Source: Rickettsiales bacterium (GTDB lineage Bacteria > Pseudomonadota > Alphaproteobacteria > Rickettsiales > SXRF01). Taken from it: a stretch of 33,867 nucleotides of DNA. Position numbers and translations under genes: made by a program. The notes under the pieces were generated by a model, which searched no databases, was not told where the DNA came from, and saw only the letters and a program-made list of their open reading frames with translations. Shown here piece after piece: positions 5,525 through 25,486 of the stretch; the first letter of the stretch is position 1, and the number at the start of each line of letters is the position of its first letter. The stretch covers positions 1-33,867 of the forward strand of contig SXRF01000100.1 of the NCBI GenBank assembly GCA_005792635.1, read 5' to 3'.

Positions 5525-5840
5525 GGTTTTTCCTCTGTTTGAGGAAGAAAACTAGCGCAAAGACGCACAAATTACAACAGGGAAAAACGGCGTAACTAAC
5601 ATTGCGCAATCATTGTCATACCAGCGGAAGCTGGTATCCAGTCTTTCTTCTGTGCTGGATGCCACATAGCTTATTTTGTAACGATTTTTTTGCAAAAATC
5701 TAACAAAATCTAGCTTCTGGCATGACAAGAATTATAGTGCGTAAGGTGAGATCGTAAGATTTTACCTTTTCAAGCAGCTCATATTGCCGTATCATCCTGC
5801 AAGAAAAACCAAGAAAAATATCTAGAATTGGGAGAAAACT
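5525..5840. other. Intergenic region between leuA'-brnTA and the patatin-like gene
   Basis: 316 bp without a gene. It must hold divergent promoters for the leuA'-brnT-brnA-leuA unit and for the patatin-rsmA-kdsB unit, but I see no convincing -35/-10 pair. It contains a perfect palindrome ATTGCGCAAT (5601-5610), a dispersed palindromic repeat (5613-5728), and a CTTACG direct repeat on the minus strand (about 5739-5757) that loosely resembles the stress-island motif but with 13-bp spacing. Confidence 0.6.
5613..5728. repeat. Palindromic dispersed repeat, TTGTCAT...ATGACAA family
   Basis: A 116-bp element bounded by TTGTCAT and ATGACAA. The left half folds on itself (ACCAGC GGAA GCTGGT), and the arms TATCCAG/CTGGATGCC pair around the centre. 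It has the same plan as the elements at 15281-15385, 24099-24187 and 24233-24346. No ORF; probably a MITE-like or REP-like element. Confidence 0.7.
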
Positions 5841-15280: not shown

Positions 15281-15385
15281 TTGTCATCCCCGCCCAACCT
15301 TGTTTGAAAGAATTGGCGGGGATCTAGAGCTTGACGCACTGACTAAAAATATGTCCTTAGATACCCGCCTGCGCGGGTATGACAA
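15281..15385. repeat. Palindromic dispersed repeat, TTGTCAT...ATGACAA family
   Basis: A 105-bp element made of two hairpins. The left arm pairs CCCCGCC with GGCGGGG and the right arm is ACCCGCCTGCGCGGGT. It is bounded by TTGTCAT (15281-15287) and ATGACAA (15379-15385). Same family as 24099-24187. Confidence 0.78.
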
Positions 15386-22598: not shown

Positions 22599-23447
22599 TT
22601 ATTGGGTTGGTTTTGCATTAGCATCCGCCGCAGGTGGTGTAGGCGGTGTGGCGGTTGGTGGTGTGGTTGCAGGCGGCTCGGCAGTAGTCGTATCAGCTGC
22701 CCCATTTGTTATTTTGCTGTTTATTTTGCGCTCGTTTGCCAGCTCAACGGTGAGCTGCTTTGCCTTTTTTGGATTCATTGCGGCGAGGATGGGCGCGGCT
22801 TTTTTCTCCGCCATCGCGTCAATAACCAACAGCAAGATTGGCATTTCCACCTCGTCAAAAATCCGCGCTGCTTCACTTGGTTTCATATTTTCATAGATTT
22901 TCACTAGGCTATGAATTTTTGCGTCTTCCTGCGCGTTGTATTTTTCCAGTAGCGCAGCCACTTGTTTTTTCATTGCTTCAATTTGTAAAATTTTTTCATT
23001 AATGCGCTTTTGCGTAGCGTCAAGAGCGGCTTCTTTTATTTGGATATTGGTTTCCCAGCGTTCAAGCTCCTCGCGGCGTTTGGACAGGCTTTGCAGCAAC
23101 TCCACCTCCACATCCGTATAGCGATGATCGGCGGTATTATCTATTTCCTTGGAAACATTGGGATTTTTTTCTTCTTTCTTTTCTTCTGATTTATGCTCGC
23201 CGCCTTCGGCTGGTTTTTCTTCAGGTTTTTTTTCCTCTGGCTTTTTGGCGGATTTTTCTTGGTCAGCAGCGGCGGGCTTTTCCGCAGAAATATTGGTGGG
23301 TTTTTCTGGCTGCTGCGCCTCTACACTGCCGATGAATAGCGACTCGGTATCGCGCACCATGCCCATAATTTTTACGCCAAGCAGCAACGACGCAGTGACA
23401 ATCGTCGCGGGAAGTAGGCGGAATATTTTGCGCTTAAACAAACTCAT
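22599..23447 (-). CDS. MotE-like flagellar protein (MgtE N-terminal domain)
   Basis: The 282-residue product has a short cytoplasmic start, a membrane helix (about 13-30), a Lys/Glu/Pro-rich linker (about 44-105, EKSAKKPEEKKPEEKPAEGG), a coiled coil (about 110-180), and an MgtE-N-like helical domain (VKIYENMKPSEAARIFDEVEMPILLLVIDAM and PILAAMNPKKAKQLT). This matches alphaproteobacterial MotE-like proteins, thought to act as periplasmic motor chaperones or scaffolds. The C-terminus is Ala/Pro/Thr-rich. The ATG overlaps the stop of the DUF6468 gene (ATGA), so it is coupled. Whether the bulk is periplasmic follows from the single N-terminal helix. Confidence 0.85.
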   Translation of the reverse strand: MSLFKRKIFRLLPATIVTASLLLGVKIMGMVRDTESLFIGSVEAQQPEKPTNISAEKPAAADQEKSAKKPEEKKPEEKPAEGGEHKSEEKKEEKNPNVSKEIDNTADHRYTDVEVELLQSLSKRREELERWETNIQIKEAALDATQKRINEKILQIEAMKKQVAALLEKYNAQEDAKIHSLVKIYENMKPSEAARIFDEVEMPILLLVIDAMAEKKAAPILAAMNPKKAKQLTVELANERKINSKITNGAADTTTAEPPATTPPTATPPTPPAADANAKPTQ

Positions 23448-24085
23448 CCTTTGATACCTGCGCGAATCATGTCCAGAAGCTCCTTTTCGGCTTTTGAGCG
23501 ATTATTACTATCTGATTTTTCTTGGAATTTTTCAGGAGATTTTTCTTGCCTACCAGCCGCAGGTTTTACCCGCCCGATAACGCGATCTAGCACCGCTTCA
23601 ATTGACGCGCTGGCTGATGATTTCGCCGCTGTTTTTTCTGATTTTTTTTCCAAAACGGGCTGTGGTTTTAGGTTGTGCCTTGGTAAAAATTCCTCTTCCT
23701 GCTCGTTCGCTATTTCTGGCTCTTTTATTGGCTCAACATTAACGCGGCTGCGGGCGCGGTTGACGGCGAAATTCGCGTCCAGCTGGTCGGCAAGGCGGTT
23801 GCCTTTATCAATCATAAAATTAAGGTCATCCATCACAAAATTGGCTTTATCAATCCGTACCTGAATATTCTCGCCAATTTTTTTGCTGGCGGATTGCAAA
23901 GCGATAATCGTTTCGGAAGCGCGGGTGGTGGATTCATCAAAATATTTAAGCAAACTGGAAAGCTCGCTTTTGCTGTCTTGCAGAATTTTTATACGGCGGT
24001 TAAGCACCCAGCAATAGCTGATAGTCGCCATCAACAAGCCCGTGATGAGCAGATTAAGCAACAAACTCATAACGCCCAGTGTCAT
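23444..24085 (-). CDS. DUF6468 family protein, flagellar gene neighbour
   Basis: The 213-residue product has one N-terminal membrane helix (about 5-27, VMSLLLNLLITGLLMATISY), a coiled-coil region (NRRIKILQDSKSELSSLLKYF to DDLNFMIDKGNRLADQLD) that carries the DUF6468 signature, and a disordered Lys/Ser-rich tail (EKSEKTAAKSSASASIEAVL). The family occurs between fliM and the motE-like gene in alphaproteobacteria, so a motor-assembly role is likely but unproven. Ribosome-binding site ATGGAGACAAAATT. Two palindromic repeats separate it from fliM. Confidence 0.85.
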   Translation of the reverse strand: MTLGVMSLLLNLLITGLLMATISYCWVLNRRIKILQDSKSELSSLLKYFDESTTRASETIIALQSASKKIGENIQVRIDKANFVMDDLNFMIDKGNRLADQLDANFAVNRARSRVNVEPIKEPEIANEQEEEFLPRHNLKPQPVLEKKSEKTAAKSSASASIEAVLDRVIGRVKPAAGRQEKSPEKFQEKSDSNNRSKAEKELLDMIRAGIKG

Positions 24086-24098
24086 AATTTTGTCTCCA

Positions 24099-24187
24099 TT
24101 GTCATCCCCGCCTTGTGCGGGGATCTAGGGCTAAAGCCACAGGCGGAGTTTGTGTCAATAGATCCCCGCACAAGGCGGGGATGACGA
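24099..24187. repeat. Palindromic dispersed repeat with 27-bp perfect inverted arms
   Basis: The arms 24101-24127 and 24159-24185 are perfect 27-bp inverted repeats (GTCATCCCCGCCTTGTGC... and its complement) around a 31-bp centre; each arm also folds on itself (CCCCGC/GCGGGG). It lies between fliM and the DUF6468 gene and is the cleanest copy of the TTGTCAT family in the window. Confidence 0.9.
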
Positions 24188-24215
24188 CCACTGAATGACA
24201 ATTCGCTAACAGAAA

Positions 24216-24231
24216 TCATAGATGCGTCTCC
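24216..24231. repeat. 16-bp direct repeat, copy 1 (possible target-site duplication)
   Basis: TCATAGATGCGTCTCC, identical to 24362-24377, which is the last codons and stop of fliM. It flanks the palindromic element 24233-24346 on its far side. Confidence 0.8.
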
Positions 24232-24232
24232 A

Positions 24233-24346
24233 TGTCATGCCAGACGCAAGTTTTACCAGCTAGCGTAGCGAGGTGCGAGGAAAACTTAGCGATGTGGCAT
24301 CCAGAAAGATGGTTGTAACTGGATGCCAGCCTACGCTGGCATGACA
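24233..24346. repeat. Palindromic dispersed repeat flanked by 16-bp direct repeats
   Basis: A 114-bp element with ends TGTCATGCCAG and CTGGCATGACA (perfect 11-bp inverted repeat) and inner arms GGCATCCAG/CTGGATGCC. Same plan as 5613-5728. It sits 1 bp from one 16-bp repeat and 15 bp from the other, as expected if it was inserted at the end of fliM with duplication of the target. Confidence 0.85.
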
Positions 24347-24361
24347 ATATAACTCCAAGGG

Positions 24362-25486
24362 TCATAGATGCGTCTCCCGCGTTTTCTGCTTCACAGGGTC
24401 GTGAATGGAAATGGCGATATTTTCGCGCACTCGCCCTAGCGTTCCCGTGGTCACAGGAATGCCGCCACAGCGAAGCGTTATATCGTCATCAGGAGCGCAA
24501 TCAAGCAGCATGGTGCTGCCAACTTTCAGGCTCATAATATCGCGCAGCGACACGACTTTTTCGTTAAAAATCGCTTCAATTTCAATATTCGTTCCGCGCA
24601 GTTCCTTGCCCAGATATTTTTCCCAGACTGTGTCCTTGCCGAAATTCTCGCCCATGAACATTTGCAACAGCAAATCACGCACAGGCTCAAGCGTAGTGTG
24701 TGGCAGAAGAATTTCCAGCATTCCGCCGCGATCATCCGCCATATCCACACGGAAACGCACGAGCAGGGCAGGGTTTCCCGGCCGCGTAATCGTGGCAAAG
24801 CGAGGGTTATTTTCCAAGCGTTCAAAATGAAAAGTGACGGGCGAAAGTGGCTCAAAAGCCGCGCTCATATCCGCCAGCACCACATCCACCATGCGCTTTA
24901 CAATATCCTGCTCAATCGTAGTGTATGGGCGACCTTCAACGCGGATTGGGCGATCGGACTTCCTGCCGCCCAGCAAAATATCCACCATGGAATAAATATG
25001 CGAGCTATCAACAGTAATCAGCCCAAAATTTTCCCACTCAACAGCGCGAAAAACCAGCAGCAAAGCGGGAAGGGGGATAGAGTTCAGATAATCCTCAAAC
25101 TTGATGCTAACCATGGATTCCAGATTAACATCAACATTTTCTGAGGTGAAATTGCGTAAGGAAGTTGAAAGCTGGCGCACCAAGCGGTCAAAAACCACCT
25201 CCATCATCGGCAATTTTTCATACGCCGTCATGGATTTATCAAGGATGGCGAAAATTCCGTCTGTCCGCCCGCCGCCACCATCTTTTTTTACATCAAAACC
25301 AAGCAGGGAATCAATCTCATCCTGATTGAGAACACGCGGTGGCTCACCACTTTCCGCCGCCATTGCCGCTGCCATCTCGTCATCAGCCGCGGGTTCTCCA
25401 GCCTTTTTTTCCTCAAGCTCCAGCATAGACGCCCACTCGGCGGCTGCCGCATCGTCCTCTGGTTTTGTTGGTTCGTTATCAGCCAT
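24362..25486 (-). CDS. fliM: Flagellar motor switch protein FliM
   Basis: C-ring switch component that binds CheY-P and, with FliG and FliN, sets rotation direction. The 374-residue product has an acidic N-terminal extension, the CheY-binding motif VLNQDEIDSLLGF (about residues 57-69), the middle CheC-like domain (SIKFEDYLNSIPLPALL, MVDILLGGR, TTIEQDIVKRMVDVVLADM), and a C-terminal FliN-like SpoA domain (IEAIFNEKVVSLRDIMSLKVGSTMLLD). It is longer than typical FliM (~330) because of the extension. The last codons and stop lie in a 16-bp repeat duplicated beyond the adjacent palindromic element. First gene of the minus-strand flagellar run. Confidence 0.97.
   Translation of the reverse strand: MADNEPTKPEDDAAAAEWASMLELEEKKAGEPAADDEMAAAMAAESGEPPRVLNQDEIDSLLGFDVKKDGGGGRTDGIFAILDKSMTAYEKLPMMEVVFDRLVRQLSTSLRNFTSENVDVNLESMVSIKFEDYLNSIPLPALLLVFRAVEWENFGLITVDSSHIYSMVDILLGGRKSDRPIRVEGRPYTTIEQDIVKRMVDVVLADMSAAFEPLSPVTFHFERLENNPRFATITRPGNPALLVRFRVDMADDRGGMLEILLPHTTLEPVRDLLLQMFMGENFGKDTVWEKYLGKELRGTNIEIEAIFNEKVVSLRDIMSLKVGSTMLLDCAPDDDITLRCGGIPVTTGTLGRVRENIAISIHDPVKQKTRETHL

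Follow-up and report, generated by a model that had tools for sequence, protein, structure and literature searches.

The junction between fliM and a downstream gene for a DUF6468 protein in Rickettsiales contig SXRF01000100.1 (assembly GCA_005792635.1; 33,867 nt, here called the window) contains a 16-bp direct repeat around a palindromic element. As judged by sequence comparison, this repeat corresponds to the stop/restart module at the overlap of two genes, and it is present in three copies (A, B and C). It had earlier been read as a mere trace of insertion, a reading that missed both the function-shaped stop/restart content and the number of copies. The explanation that we favour, and regard as fairly likely as a whole, is that palindrome dimers were inserted at the gene overlap and that the copied module was kept for the sake of translational coupling. 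The element is known; its arrangement is unusual and probably selected.

Layout of the fliM-DUF6468 junction

The features of the locus are listed in Table 1 in minus-strand order, from the end of fliM to the DUF6468 gene. A 30-nt spacer separates copy B from palindrome 2, and the latter lies between the second and the third, diverged copy of the module.

Table 1. Features of the junction between fliM and the DUF6468 gene, in minus-strand order (coordinates of the window).
Feature	Position	Strand	Remarks
fliM	24362..25486	-	ORF; Pfam FliM, E=5e-53; stop TGA (24364-24362) overlaps ATG of ORF A (24365-24363)
Junction copy A	24348..24377	-	GGAGACGCATCTATGACCCTTGGAGTTATA; fliM end and old DUF6468 gene start (MTLGVI); includes 16-bp copy 24362-24377; same junction single in G001-G003
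ORF A, 49 aa	24216..24365	-	MTLGVILSCQRRLASS...WHDMETHL; from copy A through palindrome 1 to stop in copy B
Palindrome 1 (focal element)	24233..24346	.	TGTC-tagged REP dimer with 11-bp terminal inverted repeats; minus strand TGTC-ATGCCAGC-GTAG-GCTGGCAT-CCA; class according to PMC3733652
Junction copy B	24216..24231	-	GGAGACGCATCTATGA; exact duplicate of first 16 nt of copy A; begins 1 nt past end of palindrome 1
Spacer, copy B to palindrome 2	24186..24215	.	Contains GTTAGCGAATTGTCATTC (minus strand), by eye like outer arm of another G000 palindrome type, GTTAGCGATTATCGTCATTC
ORF B, 45 aa	24082..24219	-	MISVSELSFSGRHPRL...GMTMETKL; begins at ATGA of copy B, crosses palindrome 2, ends at ATGA of copy C
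Palindrome 2	24101..24185	.	85-bp CGTC-tagged REP dimer; 27-bp perfect arms (CGTC-ATCCCCGC-CTTGT-GCGGGGAT)
Junction copy C	24068..24097	-	GGAGACAAAATTATGACACTGGGCGTTATG; 22/30 identical to copy A; carries present DUF6468 gene start
DUF6468 protein gene of flagellar operon, downstream	23444..24085	-	Starts at ATGA of copy C; Pfam DUF6468, E=6e-13

The 16-mer TCATAGATGCGTCTCC is found exactly at 24216-24231 and 24362-24377, as the earlier note had it. When up to three mismatches were allowed, three matches were present in the window compared with 0.17 expected by chance. Read on the minus strand, GGAGACGCATCTATGA consists of the fliM end (E-T-H-L-stop), a Shine-Dalgarno-like GGAG and the ATG, overlapping the stop, with which the next gene begins. 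The fliM stop codon in the copy at 24362-24377 had been recognized before, but the start codon overlapping it (ATGA, minus strand, 24365-24362) had been overlooked. Palindrome 1 is indeed a 114-bp element with perfect 11-bp terminal inverted repeats (TGTCATGCCAG/CTGGCATGACA), and it folds far better than shuffled sequences (z = -6.1). The repeat does flank this element, but it is not flush at both ends: the gap measures 1 bp at one end (24232) and 15 bp at the opposite end (24347-24361). Copy A runs 14 nt beyond the 16-mer and there codes for TLGVI, corresponding to the residues that open the present DUF6468 protein (MTLGVM). The lack of a flush end on this side is due to the 15 intervening bases being the start of the old downstream gene (MTLGVI). 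Since copy A codes for MTLGVI and copy C for MTLGVM, and since the starts in relatives differ, copy A is the stranded remnant of the old DUF6468 gene start.

By their ORF coordinates, the genes form an unbroken chain fliM-ATGA-ORF A-ATGA-ORF B-ATGA-DUF6468 with three -4 stop/start overlaps in series. Pfam searches with ORF A and ORF B gave no match, and Rfam searched over the window returned two tRNAs only and nothing at the palindromes. That this layout reflects chance and neutrality, with old insertions at the junction and similar ribosome-binding and start sequences mimicking both the repeats and the ORF chain, is very unlikely. Palindromes of the family are often open in a frame, and starts and Shine-Dalgarno motifs are alike everywhere; however, neither the exact 16-nt match nor the 22/30 match, which codes for the same MTLGV, was reached in 2000 shuffles. 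Chance would also have to get both spacings correct across a series of three ATGA joints, and to produce a second relay in the sister species (see below).

Empty sites in relatives

The genome of the window (G000; 128 contigs, 1.95 Mb) was compared with three genomes of the same genus (G001-G003), of which G001 represents the sister species. In all three, fliM overlaps the next gene by ATGA, the element is absent and the junction occurs once, not as both 16-bp copies; the empty site in a relative that the earlier note had called for is thereby at hand. At 45 further fliM loci, the next start lies mostly -13 to +17 nt from the fliM stop, in many cases exactly at -4 (often ATGA), compared with approximately 275 nt from the fliM stop to the DUF6468 gene in the species of the window. 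The insertion is therefore confirmed, both by the empty site in the three genomes of the genus and by nearly all of the 45 fliM relatives, where a DUF6468-type gene abuts or overlaps fliM. The focal element was correctly described as a non-autonomous element that had been inserted; it is dispersed, with approximately 35 matches across G000. The comparison, in which empty sites carry a single junction copy, supports the view that the repeat arose together with the inserted state. It is difficult to recognize empty sites in intergenic positions, since the relatives are metagenome-assembled genomes (MAGs) of other species with approximately 73% nucleotide identity.

An assembly error in this metagenome-derived contig might be suspected from the number of contigs and from the MAG status of the relatives. 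We consider its probability negligible, as the junction is coherent, frames are kept and a relict gene start is present; moreover, the repeat is far shorter than reads, and the same layout exists in another genome.

Class of the palindromic element

Palindrome 1 has TGTC-AT at both ends, while palindrome 2 has CGTC-AT on the minus strand and TGTC-AT on the plus strand. Stem, loop and tail can be recognized in one half of palindrome 1 (ATGCCAGC-GTAG-GCTGGCAT-CCA), the other half having a long loop; palindrome 2 combines an 8-bp stem with a CTTGT loop and a CTA tail. Head-to-head dimers of this kind are dispersed in many copies, some of them in frame in genes. Scans of G000 made use of a sample of approximately 683 kb out of 1.95 Mb (about a third), for which contigs with matches were partly favoured; in this sample, a motif scan yielded 57 candidate head-to-head pairs of several types. 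The closest full-length relative of the focal element (85% identical; L220:3953-4063, contig C63) lies in frame in mfd (TRCF domains), where it adds approximately 38 residues, and is absent from the sister genome. Further in-frame copies were found in a gene for a UvrD-family (AddA-like) helicase and in siroheme-synthase-like and COX1-like genes, as well as at the FliP N terminus. Identification of the gene on contig C79 as metF was ruled out, since Pfam assigns it as siroheme-synthase-like. By these sequence features, the focal element is a CGTC/TGTC-tagged REP dimer, a known class, related to Rickettsia palindromic elements (RPE).

The CGTC-tagged REPs described in PMC3733652 share with the G000 elements the CGTC/TGTC tag, an 8-bp stem beginning with AT, a loop of 4 or 5 nt, the CCA tail and the head-to-head dimers. 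According to that source, they are likewise numerous in alphaproteobacteria, often located in coding regions and repair genes, and without a dedicated transposase, and they include RPE-6 of Rickettsia conorii (CGTC-1) and RPE-4 (CGTC-4). Unlike these REPs, the focal dimer has a long extra hairpin in the loop of one half; the location of two dimers in a gene-overlap junction with duplicated stop/start modules also departs from what the consulted passages of PMC3733652 describe. RPE (Ogata 2000/2002, as cited in PMC10969869 and PMC3767692) are 100-150-bp palindromes with GTCAT...ATGAC ends that lie in frame within unrelated genes, and PMC3767692 gives the ATGAC motif as typical of RPE-4, RPE-6 and RPE-7. 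The elements of G000 resemble them in their ATGAC ends and in the in-frame copies in mfd, the helicase gene, the siroheme-synthase-like gene and fliP, a likeness that lies in motif and structure rather than in established orthology to any named RPE. In contrast to RPE, the focal copies sit between genes and create new small ORFs instead of lengthening a protein.

Flanks of other copies and search for a transposase

The 16-bp repeat had been attributed to target duplication by the transposase of the element, and duplications of equal length were accordingly looked for around other copies. When paired and mispaired flanks of 52 copies were compared, only the focal copy stood out clearly, its repeat exceeding the mispaired flanks of other copies (p ~0.002), and the rest resembled the control. 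Low-level matches at contigs C38, C9, C13 and C91 were at the edge of the control, and a raw scan of direct-repeat lengths gave a few 8-bp cases (C9, C69, C94). A motif-free search with an arm threshold of 12 bp, which leaves out the focal element with its 11-bp arms, covered 186 palindromes (67 in the G000 sample, 119 in G001) and detected no direct repeat of length 10 or more within 45 bp. In comparison with the sister genome, no duplication was seen at the in-frame copies in mfd, the siroheme-synthase-like gene and the COX1-like gene; host sequence was replaced in places. Similarly, the purS/purQ junction of G000 contains a palindrome without duplication, the G001 junction being directly overlapping, and two window palindromes of the same broad class (5615-5726 and 15283-15383) have no flanking direct repeats. 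Inspection by eye of the flanks of the 52 copies did not reveal a preference for TGGAGA sites beside the elements. Duplications of equal length at other copies were thus not seen, and ordinary target duplication by a transposase was rejected as the general mechanism because flanks of other copies in the two genomes lack repeats. The focal element shares with MITEs that generate target site duplications its short length, terminal inverted repeats, lack of an internal transposase gene and an empty site in relatives. It differs from them in that the other copies of the G000 family show no duplication of a fixed length that abuts the element at both ends.

Mobility driven by a RAYT, as in REPINs, was also discarded: the only PF01797 (Y1) gene encodes an IS200-like TnpA of 144 aa and is not flanked by its own repeats. 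No Y1 transposase gene was found in the same-genus genomes carrying the repeats. On contig C69 of G000 (L236:870-1680), an IS200-like element (144-aa transposase, 1039-1473) apparently lies within a larger palindrome, and the outer arms of this palindrome (CACGGCGGTTTCATAAA) are found again elsewhere in the genome. A complete 2.0-Mb genome of the same order (G026 C1) contains at least 64 near-identical Y1 (IS200-type) transposase genes.

Origin of the duplication

The duplication calls for two or more events that differ in age, since copies A and B match at all 16 nt, but 8 of the 30 positions differ between A and C. The start of the copies only 1 and 3 nt past the ends of palindromes 1 and 2, respectively, links duplication and insertion. 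Possible routes are a one-off long target duplication, slippage at a hairpin, or recombination between strains or allelic lineages.

In the first case, which resembles the proposal of the earlier note but involves more than 16 bp, a staggered cut of approximately 30 nt would have left copy A (24348-24377) on the left and copies B and C on the right. The geometry agrees with this: copy A abuts palindrome 1 at the left end of the latter, copies B and C start close to the right end of palindrome 1 and to palindrome 2, and the A-C homology spans the full 30 nt. Such a long target duplication is nevertheless unlikely. No such repeats exist at any other copy, including the in-gene copies compared with the sister genome; copy B comprises 16 nt only, so that the right copy would have to have lost its last 14 nt; the different ages of the copies argue against a single event; and no suitable transposase was found, the one Y1 enzyme being an ordinary IS200 transposase. 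IS200-type enzymes are not known to make target duplications.

Codons 2-6 of copies A and C show four differences, all of them at third positions (4/5 third, 0/10 other positions; random probability 0.0037), as if both copies had evolved as coding sequence. This pattern leans slightly towards allelic recombination, or towards copy A having changed little. A recombination mosaic, with fliM and copy A from one allelic lineage and copy C and the DUF6468 gene from another, joined via the palindromes, is nonetheless quite improbable, because the pattern is based on 15 nt and because a mosaic alone leaves copy B, flush with palindrome 1, unexplained.

A candidate translational relay

In the explanation that we favour, two RPE-like CGTC/TGTC-tagged REP dimers were inserted at the 4-nt overlap of fliM and the DUF6468 gene, each palindrome being followed directly by a copy of the overlap module (GGAG...ATGA). 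Ribosomes ending fliM would restart at the same ATGA into ORF A; after stopping at its end, they would use the copied ATGA to enter ORF B and then, in the same manner, the DUF6468 gene. The duplicated module may have been kept because it restored translational coupling that a gap of 130-270 nt would otherwise abolish. Selection for coupling would also explain why the duplication survived here and not at other copies. We infer from the layout the translation of the relay ORFs, the selection that keeps the module and the origin of its duplication.

The three ATGA overlaps fall within the -4/-1 stop/start overlap that marks termination-reinitiation coupling. In published experiments, such coupling was reduced by 80-100% at 38 nt in E. 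coli and was lost completely or almost so at 22-23 nt in H. volcanii (Haloferax), and the final 15 nt of the upstream gene were enough to sustain it (PMC10666635). Given this steep decrease with distance and the short sequence needed, the copied 16-nt module is approximately what coupling after the insertion would require. The locus resembles known termination-reinitiation systems (PMC6728339, PMC10666635) in its ATGA overlap, and would be expected to share with them the sufficiency of the last 15 nt upstream and the distance sensitivity. It differs from the usual case, one junction between two real genes, by three junctions in series via putative element-derived mini-ORFs. The chain stays open only if the length of each insert is correct modulo three and its frame is free of stops; with other family copies as stand-in inserts, the probability of an open in-frame chain was 0.16 per slot and ~0.026 for both. 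Since members of the family frequently have one open frame in any case, the chain alone is weak evidence of selection (~2.6%). With a GGAG of its own, copy B could also allow fresh initiation in place of coupling.

An independent case of the same layout is, by sequence comparison, present in the sister species. In G001 (C6:283321-283452; L174:3321-3452), a palindrome-bearing ORF of 43 aa lies between radC and an ELM1-family gene and is joined to each of them by ATGA, and the orthologous genes of G000 overlap directly by ATGA (empty site C19:4403-4406). The candidate module copies at this G001 junction, when aligned with gaps, agree in 19 of 25 columns (p ~0.02 by shuffling), which is no more than suggestive of module duplication. 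When short ORFs linked in chains by -4 overlaps were scanned for, the radC/ELM1 locus was the one palindrome-bearing relay of G001; in the 683 kb of G000, only the focal locus had palindrome motifs, and two other matches without such motifs may be spurious.

It is conceivable, though somewhat doubtful, that palindromes in overlapping junctions are repeatedly accommodated by copying of the module, the mini-ORFs serving as relays between operon genes and offering a selectable route from selfish palindromes to new small genes. RPE-type palindromes are known for in-frame entry into proteins; the locus suggests a second way of tolerating them in tight operons, in which a small inserted ORF would hand the ribosome on and the coupling signal is copied on the far side, no protein being lengthened. 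If ORF A and ORF B are translated, they would show concretely how selfish DNA can give rise to new small proteins and would test, in nature, to what extent termination-reinitiation can proceed in series.

Further palindromes in G000 and G001

A second flagellar junction is affected in another way: on contig C20 of G000 (L237:4330-4460), the N terminus of FliP is lengthened in frame by a palindrome that lies immediately after a gene overlap. The upstream gene we take from its context to be fliO. Palindromes nested within longer inverted arms (ATAGCCATTAACGAATAGTTAGC...), a layered type, occur on contigs C24, C3, C63 and C111 (L005, L006, L009, L011, L012). Finally, different palindromes are located at apparently the same place in the UvrD-family (AddA-like) gene of G000 (C16, L156:291-377) and G001 (C6, ~370,700), which suggests that palindromes either enter preferentially at this place or have replaced one another at a site that is old.
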